Assembly (NCBI RefSeq): GCF_029223525.1
Contig: NZ_JARHTQ010000006.1
Span: 124,001 to 188,000, forward strand
Length of the DNA: 64,000 bases
Source: Streptantibioticus ferralitis
GTDB lineage: Bacteria; Actinomycetota; Actinomycetes; Streptomycetales; Streptomycetaceae
Direction: 5' to 3'
Shown here: positions 42,485 to 58,077 of the stretch, piece after piece
Layout of the letters: every line of letters begins with the position of its first letter
Position numbering within the stretch: the first letter of the stretch is position 1
The notes under the pieces: model-generated
The model's input: only the letters and a program-made list of their open reading frames with translations
Database searches by the model: none
What the model was told of the DNA's origin: nothing
Position numbers and translations under genes: made by a program

Positions 42485-42955
42485 TCAGGAGCTGACGGCT
42501 GCCGTGTCCGTTCGGCGCGCGGAGAGCAGTGACAGGCAGTTGTCCCACAGGGCTTCGAGGTGCTGGGTGTTGTTGTAGAGCTTGGCGAACAGCACCTGGC
42601 CCTCAAGCTGGGCGACGACCGACCGGGCGGCCTCCCGGGTGTCGCCACCGTGATCCCCGCGCTCCCGGGCCTCGGCGATGACCTTGTCGACCATCTCCAC
42701 CTCGGTGTCGAAGATCTGCTGCAGGCGTTTACGGATGGGCTCGGTCTGGTTGCTCAGTTCCAGGGTGAGGTTGCCGAACATGCAGCCGGAGACGGTCCCG
42801 CAGCTCTGCTGGCCCGCGCGCAGGCCGGCCTCGGTCCCCTCGAACAGCCGGCGCAGCCGCGAGAGCGGCTGCGCGTCGTCCTGCAGAGCCCGGGCCCAGT
42901 CGCTGCGCTGGGCCTCCCAGTGCTCGTCGAGGACGGCCAGGGCAAGAGCCTCCTT
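42485..42955 (-). pseudogene. TetR regulator lacking its DNA-binding domain
   Basis: The frame from 42955 down reads [20 protein letters not shown] and continues through a complete TetR ligand-binding domain ([20 protein letters not shown] in the middle, [21 protein letters not shown] near the end). The helix-turn-helix, which should precede KEALALAVL, is missing: the sequence changes abruptly at 42955/42956 into an integrase fragment on the opposite strand. A start at 43015 would give a 176-residue headless protein, but it cannot bind DNA in the normal way. Confidence 0.85.
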
Positions 42956-43182
42956 GACGAGCACACCGCCGTGCGCGGGCCGGGGACGGGCTGGGACCTG
43001 CACGAGTACCGGCACTCCTCACTCACGCACCTCGGCGAGCAGGGCGCCTCCCTGCTGATGCTGATGCTGATGGCGAAGTCCCGGCACAAGAAGCCGGAGA
43101 ACGTCCGCCGCTGCTTCAAGCCGTCCCCGGAGGCGATCGCCGAACTCACCAGCCTGCTGGCCCCGGGCGACAGCCGCCGCTG
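42956..43182 (+). pseudogene. Tyrosine-recombinase C-terminal fragment
   Basis: About 75 codons are clearly homologous to the end of the integrase at 49816-50790 (homologous part from 50569). The fragment keeps the HEYRH box, but the catalytic tyrosine in NVRRYFKPS is Cys here (NVRRCFKPS), and a CTGATG unit is duplicated (LMLMLMAKS). It starts exactly where the TetR gene on the other strand is cut, so it probably marks an insertion or recombination junction. Confidence 0.88.
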
Positions 43183-43999: not shown

Positions 44000-44091
44000 G
44001 CCGTTTTCCTTACGTTGTAGGAAGGCCCTTGGCCGGTGCTCTTGGTCCGCCTGGCCCAGGGCAGGGAGAACTCCGCAGCCGGAGCCCGGGT

Positions 44092-45306
44092 TCACTCCTG
44101 GGCCTGCTGTGAGTGCTTGGGCAGGAGCCCGACGAGCAGCAGGGTCAGGAAGTACAGGCCGGCGCAGATGGCGAAGATCAGTCGTGCGGCGGCGAAGTAG
44201 GAGTGGGCAGAAGGATGTCCCACGCGGGCGAAGAACGCGGTGCCCAGGGCGGCGACGCCGATGGCGTTGGCGAACTGCTGGACGGCGTTGAGCATGCCCG
44301 CGCCGGTACCGACTTCCTCGGCGGTGGCGTCGCCGAGGATGAAGTCGAACAGCGGGATGAACACCAGGCCCGCGCCAAAGCCGGTCAGGAACAGCGACGG
44401 TGTCAGCTTCCACACGGTGATGCCGGTGCCCCAGTGGGCGGTGGACCACCACAGGGCGAGCACACCGATGACGGCGATGGACAGCCCGATGTGCAGGGCG
44501 GCACGCCCCAGCTTCGCCGCGAGCGTTCCGCCGCCGAGCAGAACGGCGACGGCGGTGCCCAGGGCCCAGGGGATCAGCGTCAGGCCGGTGTGCAGCGGCG
44601 TCCAACCCATGCCGAGCTGCAGCAGCAGGTTGATGACCAGGACGAACGCGCTCAGCGCGCCGTAGAACCCGGCGACGACCATCAGGCCGACCACGAAGCT
44701 GCGTTTGCGGAACAGGGAGGGCGCGATGACCGGGTGGCTGCTGCGGCGCTCGGAGACGACGAACAGGGCGAGCATCACGACCGAGCCGGCCATCATGGTG
44801 TAGGTCCAGGCCGGCCAGTCGAGTTCGCGTCCCTGGATGAGCGGGATGACCAGCAGGGCGGAGCCGGCGGTGAGCAGGCCCACGCCGGTCAGGTCGAGGC
44901 GGGCGCTGGGATCCTCGCCGCCGCGGCGGGGCGGCACGCGCCAGCCGAGCGCGAGGGCGATGACGCCGAAGGGCACGTTGATCAGGAAGATCGAGCGCCA
45001 CTGGCTGCCGAACAGGTCCAGGTGCAGCAGCCAGCCGGCGAGGATCGGCCCGACGACCGTGGCCAGGCCCATGATCGGGCCGAACGGCATCAGCGCCCTG
45101 CGCAGGAGTTCAGGCGGGAAGACGATCTTCACCAGCGCCATGCCCTGCGGGATCAGCACGGATCCGAACAGGCCCTGCAGCAGTCGCGCGACGATCAGCA
45201 AGGCGGGGGTGCGGGCGAGGTTGGCGACGCTGAAGTCGATGAGATCCATGATCTCGCCGAGGAAGACGACAACAAGTACGAGCCACGCGGCGCGCAGGGG
45301 CAGCAC
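44092..45306 (-). CDS. MFS drug exporter (DHA2 type) with internal deletion
   Basis: The product has 404 residues from GTG 45306. Most of a 14-helix DHA2/QacA-type exporter is present: first helix AAWLVLVVVFLGEIMDLID, ARLLQGLFGSVLIPQGMALV, then the GPILAGWLL and SIFLINVPFGV boxes and the C-terminal half. Between MDLID (about residue 24) and TPALLIVARLLQG (about 32-44), some 55-60 residues normally holding helices 2-3 and motif A are missing, with the frame kept. It is probably non-functional or altered. The divergent TetR gene with GAAC-N3-GTTC sites should control it. Confidence 0.82.
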   Translation of the reverse strand: MLPLRAAWLVLVVVFLGEIMDLIDFSVANLARTPALLIVARLLQGLFGSVLIPQGMALVKIVFPPELLRRALMPFGPIMGLATVVGPILAGWLLHLDLFGSQWRSIFLINVPFGVIALALGWRVPPRRGGEDPSARLDLTGVGLLTAGSALLVIPLIQGRELDWPAWTYTMMAGSVVMLALFVVSERRSSHPVIAPSLFRKRSFVVGLMVVAGFYGALSAFVLVINLLLQLGMGWTPLHTGLTLIPWALGTAVAVLLGGGTLAAKLGRAALHIGLSIAVIGVLALWWSTAHWGTGITVWKLTPSLFLTGFGAGLVFIPLFDFILGDATAEEVGTGAGMLNAVQQFANAIGVAALGTAFFARVGHPSAHSYFAAARLIFAICAGLYFLTLLLVGLLPKHSQQAQE

Positions 45307-45384
45307 GGCACTGGCGCCGGGTGCGGAGCATTGTTCGAGAGCAACGAACGCAATTCGATATTAGAACGCTGCTCGCGTCAAAGG

Positions 45385-45416
45385 GAACACCGTTCGTCAC
45401 ATGCAGAACGGGGTTC
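45385..45416. promoter_or_regulatory. Two TetR operators GAAC-N3-GTTC
   Basis: GAACACCGTTC (45385-45395) and GAACGGGGTTC (45406-45416) have centres 21 bp apart, two helical turns, between the divergent MFS and TetR genes. A matching pair occurs at 56461-56489 before the paralogous TetR gene. Confidence 0.8.
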
Positions 45417-45438
45417 GCTCATCCGGTATGCTCGGGAC

Positions 45439-46152
45439 ATGCCACCGACTCCTCAGCAACGGCGCGCAGCGCGGCACCATCAGCCTGTTCCCGATACGAG
45501 TGCGCCCCTGGCACGAGGTCGGCGAGCGGAGCCGATCACGGTGGACGCCGTCGTCGACGCAGCGCTCGACATCGTGGCGCGCGAGGGCTACGAGGCCCTG
45601 ACCATGCGCGGCGTGGCAGCCGCTTTGCAGACCGGACCGGCGTCGCTGTACGCCCACGTCGTCAACAAGGACGACCTGGACGAGCTGCTCATCGGCCGCC
45701 TGTGTGCCGAGATCGACCTGCCCGAGCCGGACCCCGCCGTCTGGCGGCGGCAGATCACCAGCGTCTGCACCCAGATGCGCGACCAGTACCTGCGCTACCC
45801 CGGCATCTCCCGGGCCGCGCTCGCTGCCGCCCCCACCAACGAGGACACGCTGCGCCTTGCCGAAGGCATGCTCGCCATCCTGCTCGCCGGAGGCATCGCC
45901 CCGCAGACGGCCGCCTGGGGCATCGACTCCCTGACGCTCTACGTCAACGCCTACACCCTTGAGGTCTCCCTGCTCAGCCACTCCGGCAACGAGTGGGTCG
46001 TCAGCCGGGACGAGCTGCTGAGCCGGTTCTCCAAGCTGCCCGACACCTTCCCGCAGACCAAGCGCTATGCCGCCGAACTCACCGCAGGAACCGACCACGA
46101 ACGCTTCGACTTCACCGTGAAGCTGATGCTCGACGGTCTCGCGCGCCGCTGA
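45439..46152 (+). CDS. TetR/AcrR-family regulator (TetR_C_1 type)
   Basis: The product has 237 residues from ATG 45439. A basic, proline-rich N-terminus of about 30 residues precedes the HTH (ITVDAVVDAALDIVAREGYEALTMRGVAAALQTGPASLYAHVVNKDDLDELL, about 33-85); the C-terminal domain is of the tetracycline-repressor type. It probably represses the divergent MFS-SDR operon through the two GAAC-N3-GTTC sites. A close paralog, now frameshifted, lies at 56511. Confidence 0.92.
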   Translation: MPPTPQQRRAARHHQPVPDTSAPLARGRRAEPITVDAVVDAALDIVAREGYEALTMRGVAAALQTGPASLYAHVVNKDDLDELLIGRLCAEIDLPEPDPAVWRRQITSVCTQMRDQYLRYPGISRAALAAAPTNEDTLRLAEGMLAILLAGGIAPQTAAWGIDSLTLYVNAYTLEVSLLSHSGNEWVVSRDELLSRFSKLPDTFPQTKRYAAELTAGTDHERFDFTVKLMLDGLARR

Positions 46153-46440
46153 GGCCAGTCCGCGCAGGCGCGCCGGAGCGGCGCAGCCCTGCCGTGTACT
46201 TGGCCGGCGGCCTGCTTGGCGCCGGGCTGGAACAGGCGGAAGGCCCAGCCGGGGCAGTCCTCGCCGATCTCGGCGACGGTAGCCTTCCACTCCCCGCATC
46301 CGGCCTCCCGGCACAGAGCCAACCCGTTGCCGTTGAGGACTTTCGAAACCCGCACCGTGCTCACGATCCGCCGCTGCGCTGCCCGGATCCTCGCCTCGTC
46401 GCGGTGTCCCTGGATGGCCGCCGTCCGCGCAGGTCAACGA
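46150..46440 (-). other. Possible coding remnant with Cys-rich motif
   Basis: A minus-strand frame reads a helical HRDEARIRAAQRRI, then LALCREAGCGEWKATV and EDCPGWAFRLFQPG, with codon use like real genes and a pattern of three cysteines. A GTG at 46364 is a possible start. It runs into the end of the TetR gene in antisense, so only the central part can be real. It is not recognised and may be a fragment left by the mobile elements nearby. Confidence 0.3.
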
Positions 46441-46500
46441 GCCGGATAGCCGGACACTCCGGTGCGACTCCCCGTCACCGGACCGCCCCCGGTACCGCGC

Positions 46501-46595
46501 TCATTCCTCGTCCGTGGCGTCCTTGTCGCGCAGAGGCCGCAGGCCGCCGGGGTCGGGGAGCTGGAAGGAGTAGCGGCCCAACATCTCCTTATGTG
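46501..46595 (-). mobile_element. Tn3-family transposase, extreme C-terminal remnant
   Basis: About 30 codons ending at TGA 46501-46503 read MLGRYSFQLPDPGGLRPLRD and an acidic tail, nearly the same as the Tn3 transposase tail at 52247-52447. The rest of the transposase is missing. No gene is seen between 46596 and 46691. Confidence 0.75.
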
Positions 46596-46691
46596 GGCAG
46601 TTCAAGTTGATCAACCTTCGGCGTGTTGTGAGGGTGCGGCAACTGTGGGGCCGGTGCGGCGGGTGTCAGTGGGCTTCGCTTGGATGGCTCC

Positions 46692-47366
46692 GTGTCGGTG
46701 CATGAAGTGATCAAGCAGCTGCCTGCCATCGCGACGGTCCACGACCGGTCCAGGGCCCTGGCGATGTTGGATGCCGTTCTGAGCCCTGAGTGGGAGTGGA
46801 GGTACTACTACTTCGATTCCGGCTGGTCGCCGGGCGAGGAGATGGCCTCGATGAGGGACGGCGCCGGCAACGACTACGCCATCGGGTTCTCCGCTGCTGG
46901 GGTGTATGCCCAGGCATGCGACCACGAGTCGCCGATGTCTCCGTATCACGTTTCGCCTCCGGCCCCCTGGCCTGGGCTCTTCGACTCGGTCCCTGATGTC
47001 TTTCGTCCCTATGTGGACGAGCCCGCCTTCGCCGACCACAACGGACTGCCGCGAGCGACCGTCTGCTTCTGGCGCGAGAGCTCCGACAGCCAGTGGAGGT
47101 GTGGCGAAGTCGTTGTGCCGACCGAGGACGTGGACGACGCCGACGGTGCTGAGTGGCTGTTCGATGTGCTCATCGCGGGCAGTGCCGATGCCTACCGGGA
47201 GTTCGCCGAGGAGGTCTTCGAGGTCACGCTGGACCTGGACGCGGTCCAGGCGGTTTTTGATCTCAAGCCGCTGACCCAGGAGATCGTCTCGGCGTTGAAC
47301 CCGGAAGTGACACTTGGTGATCTGGCCAAGGACATCGTCCAGATCGGTTACCCGACGACCGCGTGA
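46692..47366 (+). CDS. Hypothetical protein, immunity- or IS-associated type
   Basis: The product has 224 residues from GTG 46692. It is acidic and rich in aromatic residues (YYYFDSGWSPGEEMASMRDG; PYHVSPPAPWPGLFDSVPDVF), with no signal peptide or membrane segment. The make-up resembles small cytoplasmic immunity-like or SUKH-like proteins of actinobacteria, but I cannot assign a family. It lies alone among mobile-element remnants. Confidence 0.6.
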   Translation: MSVHEVIKQLPAIATVHDRSRALAMLDAVLSPEWEWRYYYFDSGWSPGEEMASMRDGAGNDYAIGFSAAGVYAQACDHESPMSPYHVSPPAPWPGLFDSVPDVFRPYVDEPAFADHNGLPRATVCFWRESSDSQWRCGEVVVPTEDVDDADGAEWLFDVLIAGSADAYREFAEEVFEVTLDLDAVQAVFDLKPLTQEIVSALNPEVTLGDLAKDIVQIGYPTTA

Positions 47367-47447
47367 GCGCCGGCGGCCAGCGTGAAGCGGCTGGCCATGT
47401 CGGACTTCAATCGGGCGGGCCAAGGCGGGATTCCTCCGGGCCGTCGG
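47367..47447. other. Short gap before integrase remnant
   Basis: Nothing recognisable is present here. Likewise 47682-47891, downstream on the plus strand, holds no gene that matches a known family. Confidence 0.4.
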
Positions 47448-47681
47448 TGGGTCGAGGGGCTGGCCAAGGTCGGTCAGCAGCTTCTCGATGCGGTCGGCGG
47501 TGCAGCGGTGGCGTTCGACCTCTCGATCCCAGCCGTGATTGGCGGCGTCGGTGGCGAGGGCGTGCTCGACCTTGCGCCGTGCTCGCAGCCGCGGCGCGTA
47601 GGCGGGTGTAGTGACGAACTTCGCGCAGGTCAGGTAGAGGTCGCACTCGCAGGGGCTGGCTCTGTAGGCGAGACCTGACAC
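47448..47681 (-). mobile_element. Site-specific integrase, C-terminal remnant
   Basis: About 78 codons read ECDLYLTCAKFVTTPAYAPR, a lysine/arginine-rich helix, then HGWDREVERHRCTADRIEKL and LTDLGQP. This CxLYLTCxKFVTTPxYAPRL pattern is the C-terminal tail of large actinobacterial tyrosine integrases carried by plasmids and transposons. The catalytic domain and start are missing. Confidence 0.65.
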
Positions 47682-47891
47682 CGCTTGTCGACGAGTTGTG
47701 ACAGCGCTGGTCGATGACAGCGTCGCGAAATGTCGGTGAGAAGTGACACCACCTCGGAGCTGGAGCCGCGCTCGCGGGCTGAGTTGTGGCCGTCCAAGGG
47801 GCGGCCAGGGATGCACTCTCCGTTCCATACCGGACTGGCCACCAGCACGGTGAACACGGTGCGCAAGGCGCCGTGCGAGCCCCGCCCTTCC

Positions 47892-47939
47892 TGTAAAGCA
47901 AGCTTGACAACCGCCGAGAGGTGACAAGTAAGCTTTACA
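47892..47939. promoter_or_regulatory. Inverted pair of 18-bp operators before the XRE gene, with TTGACA box
   Basis: TGTAAAGC-N3-CTTG-N-CA occurs at 47892-47909 on the plus strand and again in inverse orientation at 47922-47939; 15 of 18 bases agree. TTGACA at 47904-47909 could be the -35 element. The second site ends 2 bases before the GTG start, so binding would block initiation. This is a convincing autoregulatory arrangement. Confidence 0.75.
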
Positions 47940-47940
47940 C

Positions 47941-48153
47941 GTGCGAAACAGCGTCAGGGAACTGCGGTCGTCACGAGGGCTCTCTCAGGGCCAACTGGGC
48001 ACGGCCCTCGGGGTCTCCCGGCAGACGATCAACGCCATCGAGACCGAGCGGTACACACCTTCCCTGCCGCTCGCCCTGTCCATGGCCAAGTTCTTCAAGG
48101 TCAGCGTTGAGGAGATGTTTCATGCCGATGAGGGCCCAGCAGATGACCAGTAG
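47941..48153 (+). CDS. XRE-family helix-turn-helix regulator
   Basis: The product has 70 residues, a single Cro/CI-type HTH domain (VRELRSSRGLSQGQLGTALGVSRQTINAIETERYTPSLPLALSMAKFFKVSVEEMF). The YozG-type short form usually precedes a small membrane protein gene, as here. The GTG start immediately follows an operator half, so the mRNA may be leaderless. It overlaps the next gene by 11 bases. Confidence 0.9.
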   Translation: MRNSVRELRSSRGLSQGQLGTALGVSRQTINAIETERYTPSLPLALSMAKFFKVSVEEMFHADEGPADDQ

Positions 48154-48529
48154 CACAGCGAGGTGGTCCGTCCCCGGCTTCTTCCTCGTTCTCGGAGGCG
48201 CCTGCCTCGTGGCCGCGACTTTCGGAGGCCGCCTCGCTCTCGGCCTGGTGACGTTCGGGATCCTGGCGGTCTGCAGTCTCGCCTTAATGCTGCTGGGACG
48301 CCGGAGCGAGACCTACCGGGGCCTCACCGAGAAGGAACCCGACGAGCGCTTCGCCCGGATCGCAGGGCGAGCCTGGGCCGGCACGGGCGTGGTGCTTACC
48401 GTGGGGAATCTCAGCGCCTTCATCGGTGACCTGGCCTCCGGACGAAGCGGCGATCCGTACTTCTGGTTCGTGGCCACCGCCGCCATCACCTACGTCGCGT
48501 TCGTCGTCTTTTGGTCTCGGCATACCTGA
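48143..48529 (+). CDS. Small integral membrane protein paired with XRE regulator
   Basis: The product has 128 residues from ATG 48143 (GAGGG 8 bases upstream; ATG 48128 is an alternative). There are about four hydrophobic segments: VPGFFLVLGGACLVAATFGG, LALGLVTFGILAVCSLALML, GTGVVLTVGNLSAFIGDL and FWFVATAAITYVAFVVFW. It resembles DUF2178/DUF3796-like proteins that partner with short XRE regulators. Function unknown; it may be the membrane sensor or the target of the regulator. Confidence 0.8.
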   Translation: MTSSTARWSVPGFFLVLGGACLVAATFGGRLALGLVTFGILAVCSLALMLLGRRSETYRGLTEKEPDERFARIAGRAWAGTGVVLTVGNLSAFIGDLASGRSGDPYFWFVATAAITYVAFVVFWSRHT

Positions 48530-48535
48530 GACCCT

Positions 48536-48551
48536 GTCGCCCCCCGGCGAC
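48536..48551. terminator. Short hairpin after the membrane gene
   Basis: GTCGCC and GGCGAC form a 6-bp stem around a 4-base C loop just after the stop codon. Confidence 0.4.
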
Positions 48552-48730
48552 CATCCCAGCTGACCCTACTGAGGCCCGTGGGACTGGTAGACCCGCATGT
48601 TCAGGTGCCGCGTATTCCAACGGCATCGCCTCCCGCTCGGCCACCTAGTCGCGTGACGGGATCACAAGGGAGCCGCAATGCCTGGCCCCGCGCAATAGGT
48701 TGTTGATCAACCCCCGTATGGTTTCTGGCC

Positions 48731-49702
48731 ATGTGGCCAGGAGAGCAACGCGATGATCCGCCGATACCGTCCCCGCTGGACCCTCCTCTCCCGCCGCCGA
48801 ATTTTGCTCGGCCGACCGGTTTCGGACCAGCGCCTGCGCCATGGCAGCCACAGCCCGCCTACCCGCAACAGCCGCCGTATCAGCCAGCCTTCGGCTCTGC
48901 TCCCGTGCAACCAGGGCCGCAGACTCCGCCTGGCCGGAGCCGCCGCGCGGTGATCGGGGTGGCGATCGGTGCCGCGCTCGCGGTGATCGCCACGGGCGTG
49001 GGCGTCACCTTGGCGCTGCACAGCGGCGGCAAGAAGACGACGGAAAGCAAACGACCCGTCGCGTCGCCTTCTCCAAGTCAGACAACCAACCAACCGCAGG
49101 GCGACACCCCTAACAGCAGCGGAGGCGATGTCCAACCCGTGGTGGCCGGTTGGCAGGTAGTGGAGCACGGTAGCCTCAACGTCGCCTTTGACGTACCGAA
49201 AGACTGGACCGTCGAACCCGCGCAGGCCACCGTGAGCTTCAACGGGGCCGACGGCTTCCCGGCGGTCATGGCGGGAGGGGTGGCTGAGTACAAGCCGAAC
49301 TACTGCTCGAAGGGGAACACGGTGGGCGTCGCGGGAACCCGTCCCGTCGATGACGCCAAGAATCTCCAGGACGCCGCCGTGACGAGCGCGGAGGACTGGG
49401 TCTACTACGGCTTCACCGACCCCACGAGCAAGCAGCACGGGACGCTGAAGTACACGCCAGCGGCGCCATTTTCCAACCAGCACGGCATCACCGGCTACGC
49501 CGCGGAGGCAACCGCCAGCGACGTTCCCAAGGCCAACCAGTGCACCACAGACGGCGCCGCCTACACGGTCGCCTGGCTCGGGGACGACGGCAAACCCGTG
49601 GTGGCCGTGATCCTCACGAACACCACGGGACCTGAACAGGTCTCGCCGCAGACCATCACCACCGTCGAAGGAAGCCTTCGACGGATCCATTCAGCTTCAT
49701 GA
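48731..49702 (+). CDS. Proline-rich single-pass membrane protein with extracellular domain
   Basis: The product has 323 residues from ATG 48731. The cytoplasmic N-terminus (1-70) is rich in Pro, Gln and Ala. One transmembrane helix (VIGVAIGAALAVIATGVGVTLAL, about 74-96) is followed by a Ser/Thr/Pro linker and a folded outer domain (about 135-323) with two Cys (NYCSKG and NQCTTD) that may form a disulfide. The outer domain resembles those of actinobacterial DUF8017-type membrane proteins. Function unknown. A 70-bp perfect palindrome begins directly after its stop codon. Confidence 0.75.
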   Translation: MWPGEQRDDPPIPSPLDPPLPPPNFARPTGFGPAPAPWQPQPAYPQQPPYQPAFGSAPVQPGPQTPPGRSRRAVIGVAIGAALAVIATGVGVTLALHSGGKKTTESKRPVASPSPSQTTNQPQGDTPNSSGGDVQPVVAGWQVVEHGSLNVAFDVPKDWTVEPAQATVSFNGADGFPAVMAGGVAEYKPNYCSKGNTVGVAGTRPVDDAKNLQDAAVTSAEDWVYYGFTDPTSKQHGTLKYTPAAPFSNQHGITGYAAEATASDVPKANQCTTDGAAYTVAWLGDDGKPVVAVILTNTTGPEQVSPQTITTVEGSLRRIHSAS

Positions 49703-49772
49703 GGCAGTTGGAGGAGGTACCCGCGAAGCGGCCCCCGCGGGGGCCGCTTCGCGGGTACCTCCTCCAACTGCC
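49703..49772. repeat. 70-bp perfect palindrome
   Basis: All 70 bases are self-complementary: two 34-base arms (left arm begins GGCAGTTGGAGGAGGTACCC) around a central GC. It begins at the first base after the stop codon of the membrane protein gene and ends 44 bases before the integrase start. RNA from it would form a very stable hairpin and so terminate transcription. The length and perfection are beyond what a terminator needs; it may also be two abutting element ends or a recombination product. Confidence 0.95.
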
Positions 49773-49815
49773 ATAAGCATGCGAGCCGAAAAGGCAACAG
49801 AATAGCCTCTGAACT

Positions 49816-50790
49816 GTGAGTTCACGTCAACGCGCGGGGTCGTTCTCCCGGGGCGGCGCGTACTGGCCGGGGTGCAGGCGCTGCACGGCGCGGTGTTGCC
49901 GTCCGCGGGCGGTGACGGCCGAGAGGACGGACCCGGTCCTCGCGGGCGGGGTGTTCCCAGCGGCCTTGGCAGCCGAAACGGCGAGGGCCTCGGTAGCTTG
50001 GCACCTCGAACTGCTCTGGGGCACCGCGGCGGTCAACACCTGGAACTCCCGCCGGGCCGGGGTGCTGTCCTGGCTCGGCTGGTGCCGCGAGCGCGGCTAC
50101 GAGGGCCCGGCGGTTCCGGCCTGGGCGAAGCGGCTGGCGGTGCCGGACTCCGAGACCCCGGCCCGCTCGAAGATGACGATCGACCGGCTGATCGCCCGGC
50201 GCGAGGTGCACCTGCGGGAGAAGACGCTGTGGAGGATGCTCTACGAGACCTCGGGCCGGGCGGAGGAGATCCTGGGCGTCAACATCGAGGACCTGGACTT
50301 CGCCGGACGCCGCTGCCCGGTCAAGGCGAAAGGCGCTCGGACCAAGGCCCACCGCCGCGGCCAGGCCCGCGAGGACTACGTGCTGGAGACCGTCTACTGG
50401 GACGCCGGCACCGCCCGGCTCCTGCCGCGGCTGCTGAAGGGCCGCACCCGCGGACCGGTGTTCGTCACCCACCGAAAGCCCGGCCCCGGCAAGGTCGTCA
50501 GCCCGCGCGACGTCTGCCCCGACACCGGGTTCGCCCGGCTGTCGTACGGGCAGGCCCGCGCGCTGCTCGACGAGCACACCGCGCTGCGGGGGCCGGGAAC
50601 GGGCTGGGATCTGCACGAGTACCGTCACTCCGCCCTGACCCATCTCGGCGAACAGGGCGCGTCGCTGCTGATGCTGATGGCGAAGTCACGGCACAAGAAG
50701 CCGGAAAATGTCCGCCGCTACTTCAAACCGTCCCCGGATGCCATTGCCGAGCTCACCAGCTTGCTCGGCCCCGGCGACAGCCACCGGTGA
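49816..50790 (+). CDS. Tyrosine recombinase (phage-type integrase)
   Basis: The product has about 324 residues from GTG 49816. The catalytic domain shows the first Arg in [19 protein letters not shown] (about 152), the HEYRH box (about 276-280), and the catalytic Tyr in NVRRYFKPS (about 306). Residues 1-30 do not resemble the family ([14 protein letters not shown]), so the true start may lie further in, or the N-terminus may be damaged. It probably drove integration of DNA in this island. A mutated copy of its last 75 codons lies at 42956-43182. Confidence 0.85.
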
Positions 50791-50937
50791 ATGTGCGGTG
50801 CTGCCGTCACCGGTACGTATCCGCTTCCATGCCGCCAACGGTCCGATGATGGCGAGCCGTGGGCGGGACTGGGCCAGCTGCTAGAATGCACGCGTTGGCC
50901 TTCGGCGCCCCAACGGGTGTGTCCGGAGGCTTTTTTC

Positions 50938-52161
50938 ATGCCTTCTGACACATCTGCGTCCAGCACGCTTCCCACCACCAGCTACCGTGGCCTGCTCCGC
51001 AACCGTGAGTTCGCCGGCTTGTATGCCAGCTTCACACTGACGGTCGCCGCGAGCACCTTGTCGGGCTTCGCGCTCGGCACGCTGGTCAACCATCAGACCA
51101 AGTCCCCGTTCCTGACAGCCGTGAGCATGTACGGCGCCACGTTCGCGACGGTCCTCGGTGCGCTGACGCTGATGTCGGTCGCGGACGGAAGCCGTCCTCG
51201 CCGGACCCTCGTCGCGCTCCAGTGCGTCTCGCTCGTGGGTGTTGCCGCACAGGCGGTTCCAGGGCTGCCGCTCGCTGCCCGGTTCGGGCTGCTCCTTGTA
51301 CTGGGGTTCTTCCAGTCCTTGGGAACGGGAACGCGGATGGGGCTGCTCGCCGAGGTGGTGCCGACCTCCACGTATGCACTGGCACGTTCGCTGATGAACA
51401 TCACCTCGGGCGGCATGGCCATCCTCGGCTACGCCATCGGCGCCGTACTCCTGCGGTACCTGAGCCCGCAAGAGGTCTTCGTCACCGCGACAGCCCTGAC
51501 CGGAGCCGGATTGATCATTGTGGCGGTGACTGTCCGGGAACACTCGATCCGTCTGACCCGTCGCCCCGGACTGCGCCAGACCTGGACCACGAACATCGCG
51601 CTCTTCTCCCACTCCGGCCAACGCGCGCTGCTGCTGAATCTGTGGGTCCCCAACGGCCTGATCGTCGGCTGCGAGGCCCTGTTCATCTCCTACGCCCCCA
51701 ATCACGCTGGCGCCTTCCTGGCCGCCGGATCGGCAGGCATGCTCCTCGGTGACCTGACTGTCGGGCGACTGCTCACCGCCGAGCAGCGACGCCGCTATGC
51801 ATTCGCCCTGCGACTGCTGCTCGCCATCCCTTATCTGTTGTTCGCCATCCACCCGCCCGTGCTGGTGGCGACAGCCGCAGTGTTCATCGCCAGTGCCGGG
51901 TTCGCCGCCACCCTGCCGCTCCAGGAGCAGCTCCTCGCGCTGACCCCCGATCCGGTCCGTGGCCAGGTCCAGGGAGTTGAGTCCGCCGGCCGGATGACGT
52001 GGCAGGGCATCGGAGCCGCGATCGCCGGCGGCGTTGCCCAGCATTTCACCCCCGGCACGGCCATCACTGCTGTGGCCGCAATCTCTGTCGCCATCACTGT
52101 CTTCTCCCGGCCCTTCGTGGTCCGCGCCCAAGCCGTCCGTGTCGAGACGGCCAACGCATAA
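50938..52161 (+). CDS. MFS transporter
   Basis: The product has 407 residues from ATG 50938, with GGAGG 7-8 bases upstream. About 12 hydrophobic segments are seen. A degenerate motif A appears as SVADGSRPRRTL (about 80-91). The sequence is typical of actinobacterial MFS exporters of unknown substrate. It follows the integrase by 147 bases and ends 85 bases before a Tn3 remnant on the other strand, so it is cargo in a mobile context. Confidence 0.88.
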   Translation: MPSDTSASSTLPTTSYRGLLRNREFAGLYASFTLTVAASTLSGFALGTLVNHQTKSPFLTAVSMYGATFATVLGALTLMSVADGSRPRRTLVALQCVSLVGVAAQAVPGLPLAARFGLLLVLGFFQSLGTGTRMGLLAEVVPTSTYALARSLMNITSGGMAILGYAIGAVLLRYLSPQEVFVTATALTGAGLIIVAVTVREHSIRLTRRPGLRQTWTTNIALFSHSGQRALLLNLWVPNGLIVGCEALFISYAPNHAGAFLAAGSAGMLLGDLTVGRLLTAEQRRRYAFALRLLLAIPYLLFAIHPPVLVATAAVFIASAGFAATLPLQEQLLALTPDPVRGQVQGVESAGRMTWQGIGAAIAGGVAQHFTPGTAITAVAAISVAITVFSRPFVVRAQAVRVETANA

Positions 52162-52246
52162 GCCAACCCGAGTCGGTAGCCGATTACACGAGCCTTCCAC
52201 GACGGCATGAGCGGCGGGCACGGCCGGACGCGCCCGCCGCGCTTCG

Positions 52247-52447
52247 CTACTCGTCGGCGGCCTCGGCTTCACGGAGGGGCCGGAGGCCGCCCGGCAGGTC
52301 GGGGAGCTGGAAGGAGTAGCGGCCCAACATGTTGACGTGGTGGCGCACGAACGGGGAGAGGCGGGCCACGTCCTCGTCCGCCACGTCGAAGCCGTCCGCC
52401 CGCAGCTGGTTCACGGCGGCGTCGGTGTACCGCGTCGTGAACAGCGA
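52247..52447 (-). mobile_element. Tn3-family transposase, C-terminal remnant
   Basis: About 66 codons end at TAG 52247-52249. They read RYTDAAVNQLRADGFDVAD, DEDVARLSPFVRHHVNMLG, RYSFQLPDLPGGLRPLRE and an acidic tail, the conserved end of Tn3 transposases. At 52448-52455 the homology changes without a gap to an IS110 transposase, so an IS110 copy or a deletion joined the two. Confidence 0.85.
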
Positions 52448-52449
52448 TC

Positions 52450-53054
52450 TAGCGTTTCCGACCTTGCGGTTGGCCAGCCATTTGGTCAGTCGTGTGACCC
52501 CGGTGCGGCGGATCGAGGCCGGGGTCTGGTAGCCCGTCAGAGCTTGAGCGAGCCGGTGTTGGTCACCTCCAGAGCCGGGAACATGCTCAGCAGGGTGCCG
52601 CGCAGGCGGTTGACCACGCGGGTGCGGTCCTCGACCAGGTCGGCCCGGCGTCCGGTCAGCAGCTTCAGCTCGATGGCGGCTTCGTCGCCGGGGCGAACGA
52701 GCCGCAGATCGCGGCGCATCCTGGCCTGGTCGGCGATCACGTAAGCGTCGCGGGCGTGGTCTTGCCCTCGCCGCGGTAGCCGTCGGATGCCCGGTTCACC
52801 AGGCGTCCGGGGATAACATCCTGACCGTGGTTGACCGGCAGAGCCAGGAGCAACGCGGGTTCTCCGCCGGTCATGTCGATGGCCCAGGTCACTTGACGGC
52901 CGTCGGCCAGGTCGAGGACGTCACCGATCAGCTTCAACAGCTCGGGCTCGTCGTTGGCCACCCGCCGCGACAGCAGGGTCTTGCCGTCAGCATCCAACGC
53001 GAGACCGTGATGGTGGCCCTTGCCGCTGTCGATCCCCGCCCATATCCGGCTCAT
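52450..53054 (-). mobile_element. IS110-family transposase, N-terminal part, frameshifted
   Basis: ATG 53054 opens the RuvC-like DEDD domain: IWAGIDSGKGHHHGLALDADG, then WAIDMTGGEPALLLALPVNHG and GRLVNRASDGYRGEGKT. A frameshift near 52745 moves it to IADQARMRRDLRLVRPGDE and LTGRRADLVEDRTRVVNRLRG, and a second near 52540 to LTGYQTPASIRRTGVTRLTK and WLANRKVGNA, where it ends against the Tn3 remnant. The C-terminal serine domain of the transposase is absent, so the element is dead. Confidence 0.85.
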
Positions 53055-53405
53055 CGTGCTCCTGACGGGCTTGTTCGTGTTGTTCGCACCACGGACGACC
53101 TCGCCGGCACTGCTCTACACAGCGACCAGTTCGCACTTCCCAATCGGCGGCCGAGTCGTCGTGGGACACCGGGCGGCAAAGCGTGTTCAGCCACAAGACA
53201 GCAGCCGCCTGATAGCCACACCCGGTGTCCCTGGGTGTCCCCACCCCACGAACGGGAGGACCAACCCGACCCAAAAGGTAGAGCTACCTGACCCATAGCA
53301 TCGCCGCAGGTCACTGCGCCGAATCGTATTTTCGAGCGGCACACGCCAACTGGGGCGCTCACGTGGCCGACTGGAGCGCTCAGTCGCAATGAGGAATCAT
53401 GAAGC
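53055..53405. other. Intergenic stretch upstream of the IS110 remnant
   Basis: No gene is recognised. The first part may be the left end of the IS110 copy (that family has no terminal inverted repeats). The rest holds short non-coding sequence before the GNAT gene. Confidence 0.4.
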
Positions 53406-54287
53406 ATGCGCCCGGACGGCTGGCACCTCACCGAAGACCTCGACGGCTTTCTCGCCCGGGCCGGAGACTTCCTGCGCTCGCGCCCGGCCCTGCACACCAT
53501 GCCGCTGACGGTGACCGAATCACTGCGCACACGTGGGGCGGACGCGTTCGGCGCCGAGGCCCCCGTCTTCGGCCGCCTGGAGCGATCGGGCGAGGTCCGT
53601 GCCACCTTCTACCGCACCCCGTCCGGCCTCCTGAGCCTCACCCCGCTCACCCCCAAGCATGCCGACACCCTTGCTGCCCGTCTTGCCGACCTAGGCCACG
53701 TCCTCCCCGGCGTCAGCGCGGAGCGCAACACCGCCACAGCTTTCGCCGAGGCCTGGCAGCAGTACACGGGCGCAAAGCCAGCGCTCCGCGAGCAGCGGCT
53801 CCGCCTGTACCGCCTCGGCACGCTGACCCCGCCGAAGCCGTTTCCGGACGGCCGGGGTCGAGCTACGGTTGAGCAAGACCGTGAGCAACTCACGCTCTGG
53901 TGCCGCGAGTTCGCCGCAGCCGTCGGGGAAGCCCTCTCCGTGGACGCCAGCTCCTGGGCCGACACGCGCTTCGCCTCCAAACGCTATACGTTCTGGGAGA
54001 CCCCGGATGGCACTCCCGTTTCCATGGCGGGCGTGACCTCGATGGTCGCCGGCCAGATCCGGGTGGACCCCGTCTATACCCCGGCCCACCTACGCGGTCG
54101 CGGCTACGCGGCTGCTGTGACCGTCGCGGTGAGCCGGGCCGCGCTGGCCGCAGGCGCGACGGAGGTCGTGCTGTTCGCGGACGTGGCCAACCCCACCAGC
54201 AACGCCCTCTACCAGCGAATCGGGTACCTCCCAGTCACCGAGTTCGCCGTGTACGACTTCTCGTATGCCGCACCAGAAACCGGTTAG
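53406..54287 (+). CDS. GNAT-family N-acetyltransferase
   Basis: The product has 293 residues from ATG 53406. The N-terminal half (about 1-150) is a divergent acetyltransferase-like domain; the C-terminal half has motif A in RVDPVYTPAHLRGRGYAAAV (about 219-238), followed by a helix and NPTSNALYQRIGYLPVTEF. It belongs to the group of two-domain GNAT proteins of actinobacteria. The acceptor is unknown. It sits between the IS110 and IS701 remnants. Confidence 0.85.
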   Translation: MRPDGWHLTEDLDGFLARAGDFLRSRPALHTMPLTVTESLRTRGADAFGAEAPVFGRLERSGEVRATFYRTPSGLLSLTPLTPKHADTLAARLADLGHVLPGVSAERNTATAFAEAWQQYTGAKPALREQRLRLYRLGTLTPPKPFPDGRGRATVEQDREQLTLWCREFAAAVGEALSVDASSWADTRFASKRYTFWETPDGTPVSMAGVTSMVAGQIRVDPVYTPAHLRGRGYAAAVTVAVSRAALAAGATEVVLFADVANPTSNALYQRIGYLPVTEFAVYDFSYAAPETG

Positions 54288-54390
54288 TACTCCAGTTGCA
54301 GTTCGCTATTCCTGCTGGTCAGGAGCCTGTTTCCGAGTGTAGTGAACTGATGGCCCGTCATGCGTCGGGGGGGTTCGCGACCGACGGTAT

Positions 54391-54830
54391 GTGATCCCCG
54401 TAGTTCTGATCACGCAGGATGATGTGCGACCCGACTTCTGGGCAGCGGAGCTTGAGGAGGTGCTGCTGAGGGTCGGTCACCGGTTCAGTCGAGCTGACCT
54501 GCGGCGGCGGATGCGTGACTACATGCGGGAGCTGCTGGGGGCCGGTGGGCCGGAAGAACGGCTGGCAGCTTGCCGAATACGTGGGGCACAGCGCACCTCA
54601 CAGGCTGCAGAACCTGCTTAACCGGGCCCGCCGGCACGCGGACGAGGTCCGCGACGACCTCCAGGCATCCGTCGCCGAGCGCCTGGGCGAGCCTGGCGGC
54701 GTTCTCGTCATCGATGAGACGGGCTTCCTCAAGAAGGGCCACGTCGGCCGGTGTGCAGCGGCAGTACTCCGGCACCACCGAACGCACGGAAAACTGCCAG
54801 GTCGCCGTGCGTTTCGGCGTTACTTGGATG
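54391..54830 (+). mobile_element. IS701-like (DDE) transposase fragment with frameshifts
   Basis: The start (MIPVVLITQDDVRPDFWAAE, then GHRFSRADLRRRMRDYMREL) is in one frame; GPVGRKNGWQLAEYVGHSAP, LQNLLNRARRHADEVRDDLQ and the catalytic-aspartate segment VLVIDETGFLKKG are in the next; SAGVQRQYSGTTERTENCQ is in the third. The order matches IS701-family transposases. It ends about 50 bases before the FAD monooxygenase stop codon. Roughly the first third of the protein remains. Confidence 0.82.
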
Positions 54831-54879
54831 ATCGACGTCATCCGGCAGTACATCGGCCGAGGTCGACGCGGACAGGGGG

Positions 54880-56454
54880 TCAGCCCACGGGCTCGTGCTC
54901 GGGTGAGGACGACGGCGCGCCGCTCCATCGGTGCAGGGCGGCTTCGAGGCCGGTGACGGCGGTGATGCCGGTGGTGTCGGAGGCCCACGCAACCACCCCG
55001 TCCGGGCGTACCAACACCCCGGTCGGCGTCGCGTGGTCGTCGGTCACGCTGCTCACTCGCCCGGCCCAGGCCGCGGCGAGGCGGGCGAACGCGCCGTCCG
55101 GAGCGCGGTCGAGCAGCAGGAACCCGCCGCCGTGACCGTGGCCGGCCAGACGGGAGCCGTCCCTCAGCCACAGGTCGGGGACGAACCGGCCGACCAGCGG
55201 ATGGTCGCCGGGCAGGTCGATACGCTGCGTGACGCCGGAGATCTTCTTGACCGCGTAGGTCGTACCCGCCCGAGTACTCAGCAAATCGGCGACGACCTCC
55301 CGGAGCGCGGCCGACTTGGCGTCCCCGCGCATCACCGCGATCTGGGCCCGCGTCCAGTCCAGCACCCAGGCGCCAAGAGGACGACGCTCGGCGTCGTAGG
55401 TGTCGAGCAGCCCTTCGGGTGCCCACCCGGCGACCACGGCACCGAGCTTCCAACCGAGGTTCATCGCGTCGCCGACCCCGAGATTGAGCCCCTGACCGCC
55501 GAACGGCGCGTGCACGTGCGCGGCGTCGCCGGCCAGAAGCACCCGCCCCGACCGGTAGGTCGCGGCCTGGCGGGCGTTGTCGGTCCAGCGGGTCGCGGCG
55601 CCGCGCAGCGCGGTCAGCGCGACGTTGGTGTCCGAGACGCGGCGCAGACTGGTCTGCAACTCCTCAAGGGTGACCGGCGCCGAGCGGTCGGCGGGAGCGC
55701 CGTCGAACTCCACGGTGACCACCCGCCCGGGCTGTGGCCCATAGCGGTACGCCCCGCGGCTCGACCACGCCCATCCGTTCGCGAGCATCGTAGGGTCGGC
55801 GATGTCGACGACCGCCAGGTGTCCGGTGAGCTCGGGGTCGGTGCCGGGGAAATCGATGCCCGCGAGGCGGCGCACGGTGCTGCGCCCACCGTCGCACCCG
55901 ACCAGCCACCCGGTGCGCACCGTGCCGGCAGTAGTGCCGACGAGCACGCCGTCGCCGGTGTCTTCGAGCGCGGTGACCTCCACCCCGCGACGCACCGGTA
56001 CGCCGAGTCGCGCGACATGGTCGGCCAGCAGCGCCTCCAGCTCACGCTGCGGCACCATCCTCGCTCCGTCGACCGTGGCGTGCGCGGCGAGGTCGGGATC
56101 GGACCAGTCCACGAGGTCGGCATCGAGGATCATTCCCGCGAAATGCCCGGTGAACCGCGACTCGCGCGCTCGCTGGCCGCCACCGGGCGGTTGGTCGTCG
56201 ACCCTGCGAGCGAACGACCCCACCCGCTTAAGCATCTCTCGCTGCACCTGTTCGGCGGCAGGCAGCAGGCCGCGGCGGTCGAGTGCCTCGGCCGTCGGCA
56301 CGTTGATCGCCCCCGCCTTCATCGCCTCGTCCGGCTCGGACCGTCGCTCGAGTACCTGCACCGTCGCCCCGGAGAGCGCCAGCTCCGCGGCGAGCACGAG
56401 GCCCACCGGCCCGGCTCCGACCACGGTCACGTCCACGTCCTGGTTCACATTCAT
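54880..56454 (-). CDS. FAD-dependent aromatic monooxygenase (PheA/TfdB, RdmE/PgaE-like)
   Basis: The product has 524 residues from ATG 56454. Class A flavoprotein hydroxylase motifs are complete: VTVVGAGPVGLVLAAELAL (FAD, residues 9-27), the DG motif GWLVGCDGGRSTVRRLAGI (about 180-198), and the GD motif VLLAGDAAHVHAPFGGQGLN (about 307-326). A C-terminal thioredoxin-like domain ends the protein. It hydroxylates an aromatic substrate, possibly an antibiotic, as rifampicin monooxygenases do. It is divergent from a TetR gene with two GAAC-N3-GTTC sites between, a typical drug-response layout. Confidence 0.9.
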   Translation of the reverse strand: MNVNQDVDVTVVGAGPVGLVLAAELALSGATVQVLERRSEPDEAMKAGAINVPTAEALDRRGLLPAAEQVQREMLKRVGSFARRVDDQPPGGGQRARESRFTGHFAGMILDADLVDWSDPDLAAHATVDGARMVPQRELEALLADHVARLGVPVRRGVEVTALEDTGDGVLVGTTAGTVRTGWLVGCDGGRSTVRRLAGIDFPGTDPELTGHLAVVDIADPTMLANGWAWSSRGAYRYGPQPGRVVTVEFDGAPADRSAPVTLEELQTSLRRVSDTNVALTALRGAATRWTDNARQAATYRSGRVLLAGDAAHVHAPFGGQGLNLGVGDAMNLGWKLGAVVAGWAPEGLLDTYDAERRPLGAWVLDWTRAQIAVMRGDAKSAALREVVADLLSTRAGTTYAVKKISGVTQRIDLPGDHPLVGRFVPDLWLRDGSRLAGHGHGGGFLLLDRAPDGAFARLAAAWAGRVSSVTDDHATPTGVLVRPDGVVAWASDTTGITAVTGLEAALHRWSGAPSSSPEHEPVG

Positions 56455-56460
56455 TGACAC

Positions 56461-56489
56461 GAACAGTGTTCTATATACGAACGGCGTTC
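56461..56489. promoter_or_regulatory. Two TetR operators GAAC-N3-GTTC
   Basis: GAACAGTGTTC (56461-56471) and GAACGGCGTTC (56479-56489) have centres 18 bp apart and flank TATATA. They match the pair at 45385-45416 in half-site and spacing class. The first begins 6 bases before the monooxygenase start codon. Confidence 0.8.
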
Positions 56490-56510
56490 GTGTCAAGCTA
56501 TGACGGTTGG

Positions 56511-56855
56511 GTGAACCCGAGAGAGCGACGCGCGGCGCGCCACCAGCCGCCGAACCCCGAGGTCGAAGCCGACCCCGGGCCGCGGCGCCGCAAGGCCCCG
56601 ATCACCGTGGAGCAGGTCATCGACACCGCGCTGGGCGTCATCGCCACAGAGGGCCAGGAGGCACTGACCATGCGCCGGCCGGCCGCGCGCTCGACACCGG
56701 ACCCGCCTCGCTCTACGCCCACGTGGTCAACAAGGCCGACCTCGACGAGCTGCTCATCGGGCGGCTGTGCGCCGAGCTCGTACTACCCGAGCCCGAGCCC
56801 CGAGCCCGACCCCGCGGCCCGGCGGGAGCAGATCCGCGGCGTTTGCACCCCAAAC
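56511..56855 (+). pseudogene. TetR regulator, frameshifted and truncated
   Basis: GTG 56511 opens a protein like the TetR at 45439: RRKAPITVEQVIDTALGVIA and TEGQEALTMR in the first frame. Then the frame slips to DTGPASLYAHVVNKADLDEL and LIGRLCAELVLPEPEP, and slips again to AARREQIRGVC, after which homology ends near 56855. Most of the ligand domain is lost. The divergent monooxygenase therefore lacks its own repressor. Confidence 0.85.
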
Positions 56856-56979
56856 GGTGGCAGCAACGAGCGGGAAGTAGGGAAATTTTCCTAACCGGAA
56901 CCGGACGGCGCCCCCGGAGCCGGGAGGCGGTGCACACTCTGTGATGCGGGACACATCACGCATCCGGGAGGCACTGCAC

Positions 56980-58077
56980 ATGGAAAGCGTCTTGCTCGCG
57001 GTCGGAACGAAGAAGGGCCTGTTCGTCGGACGACGCCGCCGCTCGCGCCCCGACGCGGACTGGGAGTTCACCGGACCGCACTTCCCCATGCAAGCGGTCT
57101 ACTCCGTCTGCATCGACACCCGAGGCTCCCGCCCCCGCCTCCTGGCGGGGGCGGACAGCTCGCACTGGGGCCCGTCGGTGTTCCGCTCCGACGACCTGGG
57201 AGCGCACTGGCACGAACCCAGCCGCCCGGCGGTGAAGTTCCCGGAGTACACCAACACCTCACTGGTCCGGGTATGGCAGCTCCACCCGGCCGGACCCGCC
57301 GCGCCCGCTGTGGTGTACGCGGGCACCGAGCCCGGCGCACTGTTCCGCTCCGACGACGGCGGCGAGACCTTCGACCTGGTCCGCAGCCTGTGGGACCACC
57401 CACAACGCGAGCACTGGGGTGCCGGCTACGGCGGTCAGGCCGTACACACCGTCGTCACCGATCCCCGCAGTGCCGACACGCTGATGGTCGCGGTGTCCTC
57501 GGGTGGCGCGTACCGGTCGTCGGACGGCGGAGCGAGTTGGGAGCCGTGCAACACCGGGGTGAAGGCCGAGTTCCTGCCGGACCACTATCCGGAGTTCGGC
57601 CAGTGCGTGCACAAGATCGCGCAGGACCCGACCGACCCGGACCGGCTCTTCCTGCAGAACCACGGCGGGGTCTACCGCACCGATGACGGCGGAGCGCAGT
57701 GGTCCGAGATCGGCAAGGGCCTGCCCGCCGACTTCGGTTTCCCGATCGCCACGCACCCCCGCCGTGGCGGAGTCGCCTATGTCTTCCCGGTCAACGACGG
57801 CTCCGACCGTTACGCACCCGAGTACCACTGCCGGGTGTACCGCACGGATGACGCCGGGGCGAACTGGACGGCCCTGGGGGGCGGACTGCCCACCGAGCAC
57901 CATTACGGGATCGTGCTCCGCGACGCCCTGCGTACCGATGACAACGACCCGGCCGGGGTCTACTTCGGCACTCGCAACGGCGAGGTGTACGCGAGCGCCG
58001 ACGAGGGCGACAGCTGGCGGCTGGTCGCCTGGCACCTGCCGGACGTGCTGTGCGTGCGGGCGGCGGTGGTCGCCTGA
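56980..58077 (+). CDS. BNR/Asp-box beta-propeller protein (sialidase-like)
   Basis: The product has 365 residues from ATG 56980, with GGGAGG 8 bases upstream. Repeated Asp-box motifs are seen (FRSDDGGETF, YRSSDGGASW, YRTDDGGAQW, YRTDDAGANW, YASADEGDSW), giving a beta propeller. No signal peptide is present, so it is unlikely to be a secreted sialidase; it belongs to a conserved group of cytoplasmic WD40/YVTN-like glycosyl-hydrolase relatives. Function unknown. It is the first stable gene after the island. Confidence 0.85.
   Translation: MESVLLAVGTKKGLFVGRRRRSRPDADWEFTGPHFPMQAVYSVCIDTRGSRPRLLAGADSSHWGPSVFRSDDLGAHWHEPSRPAVKFPEYTNTSLVRVWQLHPAGPAAPAVVYAGTEPGALFRSDDGGETFDLVRSLWDHPQREHWGAGYGGQAVHTVVTDPRSADTLMVAVSSGGAYRSSDGGASWEPCNTGVKAEFLPDHYPEFGQCVHKIAQDPTDPDRLFLQNHGGVYRTDDGGAQWSEIGKGLPADFGFPIATHPRRGGVAYVFPVNDGSDRYAPEYHCRVYRTDDAGANWTALGGGLPTEHHYGIVLRDALRTDDNDPAGVYFGTRNGEVYASADEGDSWRLVAWHLPDVLCVRAAVVA

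Follow-up and report, generated by a model that had tools for sequence, protein, structure and literature searches.

Structured transcript 3′ ends with and without U residues have been distinguished by Term-seq in Streptomyces clavuligerus, and those lacking U were likened to I-shaped terminators or to the ends of Rho-terminated transcripts (PMC8269248). A review places the I-shaped terminators of mycobacteria at distances of up to 50 bp from the stop codon (PMC12288462). In a comparison of 118,019 genomes, perfect inverted repeats were >12-fold enriched downstream of bacterial transcript ends, and bacterial inverted repeats were found to prefer 4-bp spacers (PMC13155455). As to how such structures arise, Monttinen and Loytynoja described RNA hairpins born by template switching (PMC8794818). 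Among the titles and abstract openings listed in searches of open-licence papers, none concerned long perfect palindromes that stand at the ends of Streptomyces genes.

The window, by which we mean the whole 64,000-nt stretch of DNA that was analysed, had been described in the original prediction as carrying a 70-bp perfect palindrome between a membrane protein gene and an integrase. The palindrome was confirmed, with all 70 of its 70 nt paired and no mismatch; the two 34-bp arms and central GC of that description are equivalent to two arms of 35 bp. It is the longest inverted repeat of the window when arms of at least 16 bp separated by at most 100 nt are considered, and the other 17 repeats found at those settings are only 74–88% complementary. 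The next perfect hairpin in the window (loops of 0–8 nt) has arms of just 14 bp. Given the base composition of the 64-kb window, the number of perfect 35-bp arms expected by chance is ∼1e-14. The predicted fold of the corresponding RNA has a free energy of −79.7 kcal/mol and a z score of −14.5 relative to dinucleotide shuffles. The palindrome begins on the base that follows the TGA (49700–49702) of a 323-aa ORF, leaving a gap of 0 nt, and is followed directly by ATAAGCAT, with 2 T in the first 8 nt. A scan of positions 48500–51100 for terminators with a U-tract returned 0 sites, and an Rfam search of the entire window gave no match. Coordinates of the features are collected in Table 1.

Table 1. 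Features around the palindrome, with positions counted from the first letter of the window
Feature	Position	Strand	Remarks
Perfect palindrome, 70 nt	49703..49772	either strand (.)	35-bp arms, centre GC; RNA with a 33-bp stem and 4-nt loop, identical from both strands
323-aa ORF	48731..49702	+	Translation with proline-rich N-terminus and one hydrophobic stretch; TGA touches the palindrome
Gap between palindrome and integrase homology	49773..50003	.	231 nt
ORF read earlier as integrase	49816..50790	+	No alignment with the family over the first ∼63 codons
Tyrosine recombinase remnant (solo integrase of Streptomyces plasmids)	50004..50790	+	∼63 N-terminal codons gone; homology to plasmid relatives
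Another, shorter C-terminal piece from this integrase family	42950..43182		84% identity to 50563-50789
IS110-type transposase fragment	52737..53054	-	
DDE_5 transposase fragment	54515..55135	+	

The assembly is a draft of 110 contigs, and a palindrome created during assembly might be suspected. We consider such an artefact extremely improbable. Seventy nucleotides are fewer than the usual read length, the two flanks differ, so that no fold-back join is involved, and similar palindromes are present in two other genomes, G019 and G014, each assembled as a single contig.

We think it probable that the palindrome specifies a U-poor (I-shaped) RNA hairpin that ends the transcript of the 323-aa gene and/or protects its 3′ end. 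With the I-shaped terminators known from GC-rich bacteria and the U-lacking structured 3′ ends of S. clavuligerus it shares a stable GC-rich stem, the absence of a U-tract after the stem (as judged from our scan), a predicted 4-nt RNA loop and a position after the stop codon, here at 0 nt compared with up to ∼50 nt for the described examples (PMC8269248, PMC12288462). It differs from them in the length of its RNA stem, 33 bp folded from a 35-bp perfect arm, and in being loopless at the DNA level. As a mechanism, the very stable hairpin at the 3′ end of the gene would halt RNA polymerase, and/or would block 3′-to-5′ exonucleases so that the RNA is trimmed at that point. Since the palindrome is symmetric, the hairpin could act in both directions, on RNA made from either strand.

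We listed perfect hairpins with loops of 0–8 nt in 105 loci of at least 4000 nt each (2,109,422 nt) from the window's genome and nine other genomes of the family; 12 of 117 loci were dropped as shorter than 4000 nt, and the loci are a non-random sample of the family. Stops were predicted with a simple codon-usage gene caller, which on five annotated plasmid loci recovered 30 of the 34 stops and made 12 extra calls, several of which are genes cut by the end of the locus. A predicted stop stood within 60 nt of 27 of the 34 hairpins whose arms reached 18 bp or more, compared with 4.7% of 20,000 random placements, and the count is 26 of 33 when the palindrome of the window is excluded. The median distance to the stop in this class was 18 nt. 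For shorter arms the near-stop counts were 34/78 (12–14 bp) and 24/41 (15–17 bp); as the share rises through these classes to that of at least 18 bp, the link to gene ends grows with arm length. Of the 34 long-armed hairpins, 21 lie between tandem genes, 12 between convergent genes and none between divergent genes, the remaining one being inside a predicted gene, in a GGCGCC repeat. Among the 119 hairpins with arms of 12–17 bp, a stop is close by in 58 cases, whereas 30 are located within genes and 5 between divergent genes. Shuffling the own-genome part of the sample (520,848 nt) left one 12-bp hairpin, while the real sequence holds 27 with arms of at least 12 bp. Counts of U in the 8 nt that follow the stem ranged from 0 to 4 over 34 gene ends, with a mean of ∼2.1 compared with ∼1.1 expected from a T share of 14.2%. 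The 3′ flanks of the stems are U-poor rather than without U.

Long perfect hairpins in the family are thus mostly a gene-end feature, with a different sequence after different genes. According to the original prediction, recurrence of the same perfect palindrome after many unrelated genes would have marked it as one of an ordinary terminator family. What recurs is the form and not the sequence; because the same form of hairpin stands after many genes, the conclusion is much the same, namely that the palindrome is probably a kind of terminator. A terminator was among the options put forward at the outset, and both the position directly after the TGA and the survey support it.

Two features of the survey concern individual genomes. 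Of the 19 hairpins whose arms reach 20 bp or more, 7 come from G014, including one within a simple GGCGCC repeat. At its loci (L169–L173), 100 kb contain 15 hairpins with arms of at least 15 bp, of which three are nested within a single GGCGCC repeat; the nine other genomes have 1.8–6 per 100 kb. At L130:10329–10410, a pair of loopless palindromes, separated by 6 nt, lies between convergent genes, and each has TGTTTCACGTGAAACA at its centre. We take this sequence to be the consensus of parS, the ParB-binding site, and the locus to be a parS pair inside hairpin arms.

The original prediction placed a membrane protein gene on the left, which is correct for the 323-aa ORF. Its product belongs to no family in a Pfam search and gives a below-cut-off match to TIGR03931 (type VII secretion-associated). 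Its closest homologs in the genus are 50–53% identical, one of them a paralog within the same genome. The homologs used for comparing downstream regions are ∼25–56% identical, and other sequence follows their stops. Among 23 of 24 loci with a readable stop (L152 was left out), none is followed within 200 nt of the stop by a perfect hairpin whose arms reach 12 bp, the best arms being 11 and 9 bp. Since 0 of 23 homologs carry a comparable hairpin, the palindrome is not conserved with the 323-aa gene. An ortholog of the palindrome site, sought through these homologs and through synteny in the genus, was not found.

The number of copies bears on whether the palindrome is itself mobile. The 8.8-Mb draft genome to which it belongs yielded one copy and two genus mates none; among 394 genomes of the family, with the two best candidates scored per genome, the 393 others yielded no full copy. 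Partial matches of 22–50 nt occur in 43 other family genomes, again with two candidates scored per genome. Of the 28 such loci examined (L004–L032, with the short L017 left out), 7 carry perfect hairpin arms of at least 8 bp at the match. That the partial matches occur on both strands does not make them hairpins, as a palindromic query matches both strands anyway. Most of them thus merely resemble a single arm or the GC-rich core, and they give no evidence of copies. Exact 30-nt pieces of the arm have 0 matches in GTDB contigs and exact 23-nt pieces have 0 in viral contigs; comparison of the palindrome region with plasmids (words of 11) also gave no match.

Inverted ends of an element had been proposed as one origin, and the arm search elsewhere in the genome that was asked for along with it has now been run and yields no second copy. 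The palindrome could have come from inverted ends of a mobile element that became fused, or be a mobile palindrome of the REP or MITE kind, and in favour of this its neighbourhood contains remnants of mobile DNA, namely an integrase, an IS110 fragment and a DDE transposase fragment. Against this stand the single copy in the genome, the lack of a full copy among the two best candidates of each other family genome, and arm pieces that find no exact match in GTDB or viral contigs and none in plasmids. With nothing between the arms either, the proposal of inverted element ends is unsupported, and we hold a mobile origin to be very improbable. REP elements resemble the palindrome in being extragenic and near a gene end, but they are high-copy repeats of 20–40 bp (PMC3733652), whereas the palindrome was found once.

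The integrase reported on the right of the palindrome does belong to an integrase family, as claimed, but what is present is a 5′-truncated fragment. The family matches 177 plasmid records, 139 of them from Streptomyces, and it is from these matches that we take the bacterial family surveyed to be the Streptomycetaceae. The remnant still contains RAEE, HEYRH and SRH...RRYF, which we take to be catalytic-type motifs of tyrosine recombinases. Five relatives have a full-length protein of 324–325 aa, and their DNA homology to the window starts only at 50004 or 50005; the DNA alignment of a sixth (H18) likewise begins at 50004. A protein match of H18 that seemed to reach further upstream was rejected: the DNA matches from 50004 only, and the additional stretch is a chance alignment, with gaps, to the N-terminus of the family itself. 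For the gap between the palindrome and this homology, no match was found in the plasmid collection or among the scored candidates of the own genome and genus.

That the palindrome might be an att-like target of this integrase, another of the options first raised, is suggested by the tyrosine recombinase fragment 231 nt downstream. The cognate integrase is not intact, however, having lost its N-terminal part by comparison with the five full-length relatives, and the palindrome has no spacer. In addition, in none of the five intact relatives do the 600 nt that precede the integrase start contain a perfect hairpin with arms of 12 bp or more. The hairpin nearest to an intact integrase (L037; 21-bp arms, 5-nt loop) is ∼617 nt upstream and 59 nt after the stop of another gene. 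An integrase target is accordingly unsupported, and we give it hardly any credence. With the link to the integrase removed, the striking palindrome is most likely an extreme case of a common feature.

The intact plasmid integrases have sequence features of their own. Four of the five (L034, L035, L036, L037) have in common a short inverted repeat, GTCACC-TGC-GGTGA, ∼50–70 nt before the start codon, and in all five (L033–L037) a leader, CCTGTTATC...GGGGAAG, precedes the start codon. They may represent a site for recombination or control that belongs to the family itself. Neither is present within positions 49703–50010 of the window.

Pieces of 44000–58000 match different contigs in two genus mates; the region is therefore a patchwork in which no empty site can be named. 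The IS110-type and DDE_5 transposase fragments listed in Table 1 are mobile DNA remnants around it. Positions 47657–48541 have a second copy, 92% identical, on contig C22 of the same genome.

What remains odd about the palindrome is its length and loopless perfection. The 35-bp arm is ∼2 times the 18-bp threshold of the survey, and the longest arms in the sample belong to the window (35 bp), G019 (33 bp) and G014 (32 bp at L172, and 29 bp). The nearest cousin is the 33-bp loopless palindrome of G019, 28 nt after a stop; the 32-bp hairpin at L172 is 532 nt from one. Among the 6 hairpins whose arms reach 25 bp or more, 4 are loopless, compared with 20 of the 147 with shorter arms (Fisher p 0.006, for a comparison chosen after seeing the data). 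Given an arm about twice the threshold and an excess of loopless forms where bacterial inverted repeats prefer 4-bp spacers (PMC13155455), the longest hairpins may be something other than ordinary terminators.

The perfect match of the arms could have come from a template switch during replication, in which one arm would be written from the other in a single step. Carried to its limit, this would make the palindrome mainly a replication scar, ∼35 nt copied inverted beside a short hairpin or gene end by a template switch or snap-back and with no selected function. A perfect, loopless palindrome found in one copy fits this account, as does the higher loopless share among the longest arms, and perfect hairpins can form in one step through template switching (PMC8794818). 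Scars would, however, be expected anywhere in non-coding DNA, while hairpins whose arms reach 18 bp or more are strongly tied to gene ends and, in the survey, absent between divergent genes.

A comparison of G019 with its genus mate G003 bears on the same question. At the orthologous site the two are 82% identical in DNA, and both have a short hairpin directly after the stop (−23.5 and −26.9 kcal/mol). The 33-bp palindrome is present in G019 and absent from G003, where only the short hairpin stands; in G019 the start of the palindrome coincides with the start of the 3′ arm of the short hairpin of that genome. The sequence after the palindrome in G019 weakly resembles that after the short hairpin in G003; the re-joining of the two genomes at this point is weak, as 33 of 2000 shuffles reach the score and it does not appear in the global alignment. 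We interpret G019 as having a lineage-specific palindrome that abuts a shared, ordinary hairpin, an arrangement that is consistent with, but not proof of, birth in one step by template switching. The hairpins described as born by template switching likewise have a perfect reverse-complement stem (PMC8794818), and they differ from the site in the window, which lacks a pair of ancestor and descendant; here the mechanism is inferred. The hairpins of L072 gave no good orthologs in the genus, and the genus of G014, which carries another cousin of the palindrome, holds one genome. No ortholog of the window's site was found. A scar devoid of function is in our judgement an unlikely account of the palindrome as a whole, and we continue to favour a hairpin that acts at the 3′ end of the transcript.

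A palindrome of this size is also of interest for its survival. The original prediction called long perfect palindromes unstable in bacteria. Hairpin cleavage by SbcCD in vitro has a quoted lower limit of 20–36 bp palindromes (PMC4245961). In E. coli, SbcCD cleaves long palindromes (PMC3315005, PMC4245961) that form hairpins as that of the window would, and the latter exceeds the quoted in vitro limit; the palindromes named in those sources were inserted and measure 85 to 480 bp, whereas the palindrome in the window is natural and 70 bp long. A search for SbcD in 21 genomes, G003 and the window's own among them, found a homolog above the curated cut-off in 11, including the window's genome; in G003 the match was below the cut-off only. 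The description as unstable fits only in part: 70 bp falls within the quoted SbcCD range and an SbcD homolog is encoded, and yet the palindrome is present. A 70-bp palindrome persists in a genome that encodes SbcD.

These observations lead us to a broader idea, which we offer tentatively and regard as rather doubtful: loopless palindromes with arms of 29–35 bp may form a distinct class in streptomycetes, born in one step by template switching at existing 3′-end hairpins, persisting despite SbcCD and recruited as two-way terminators. If this were true, such palindromes would be a natural record of how terminators originate and grow. Should the long loopless palindromes be a separate class, close strains would reveal hairpin terminators in the course of being created, and would also provide a test of the survival of a 70-bp palindrome in a genome encoding an SbcD homolog.
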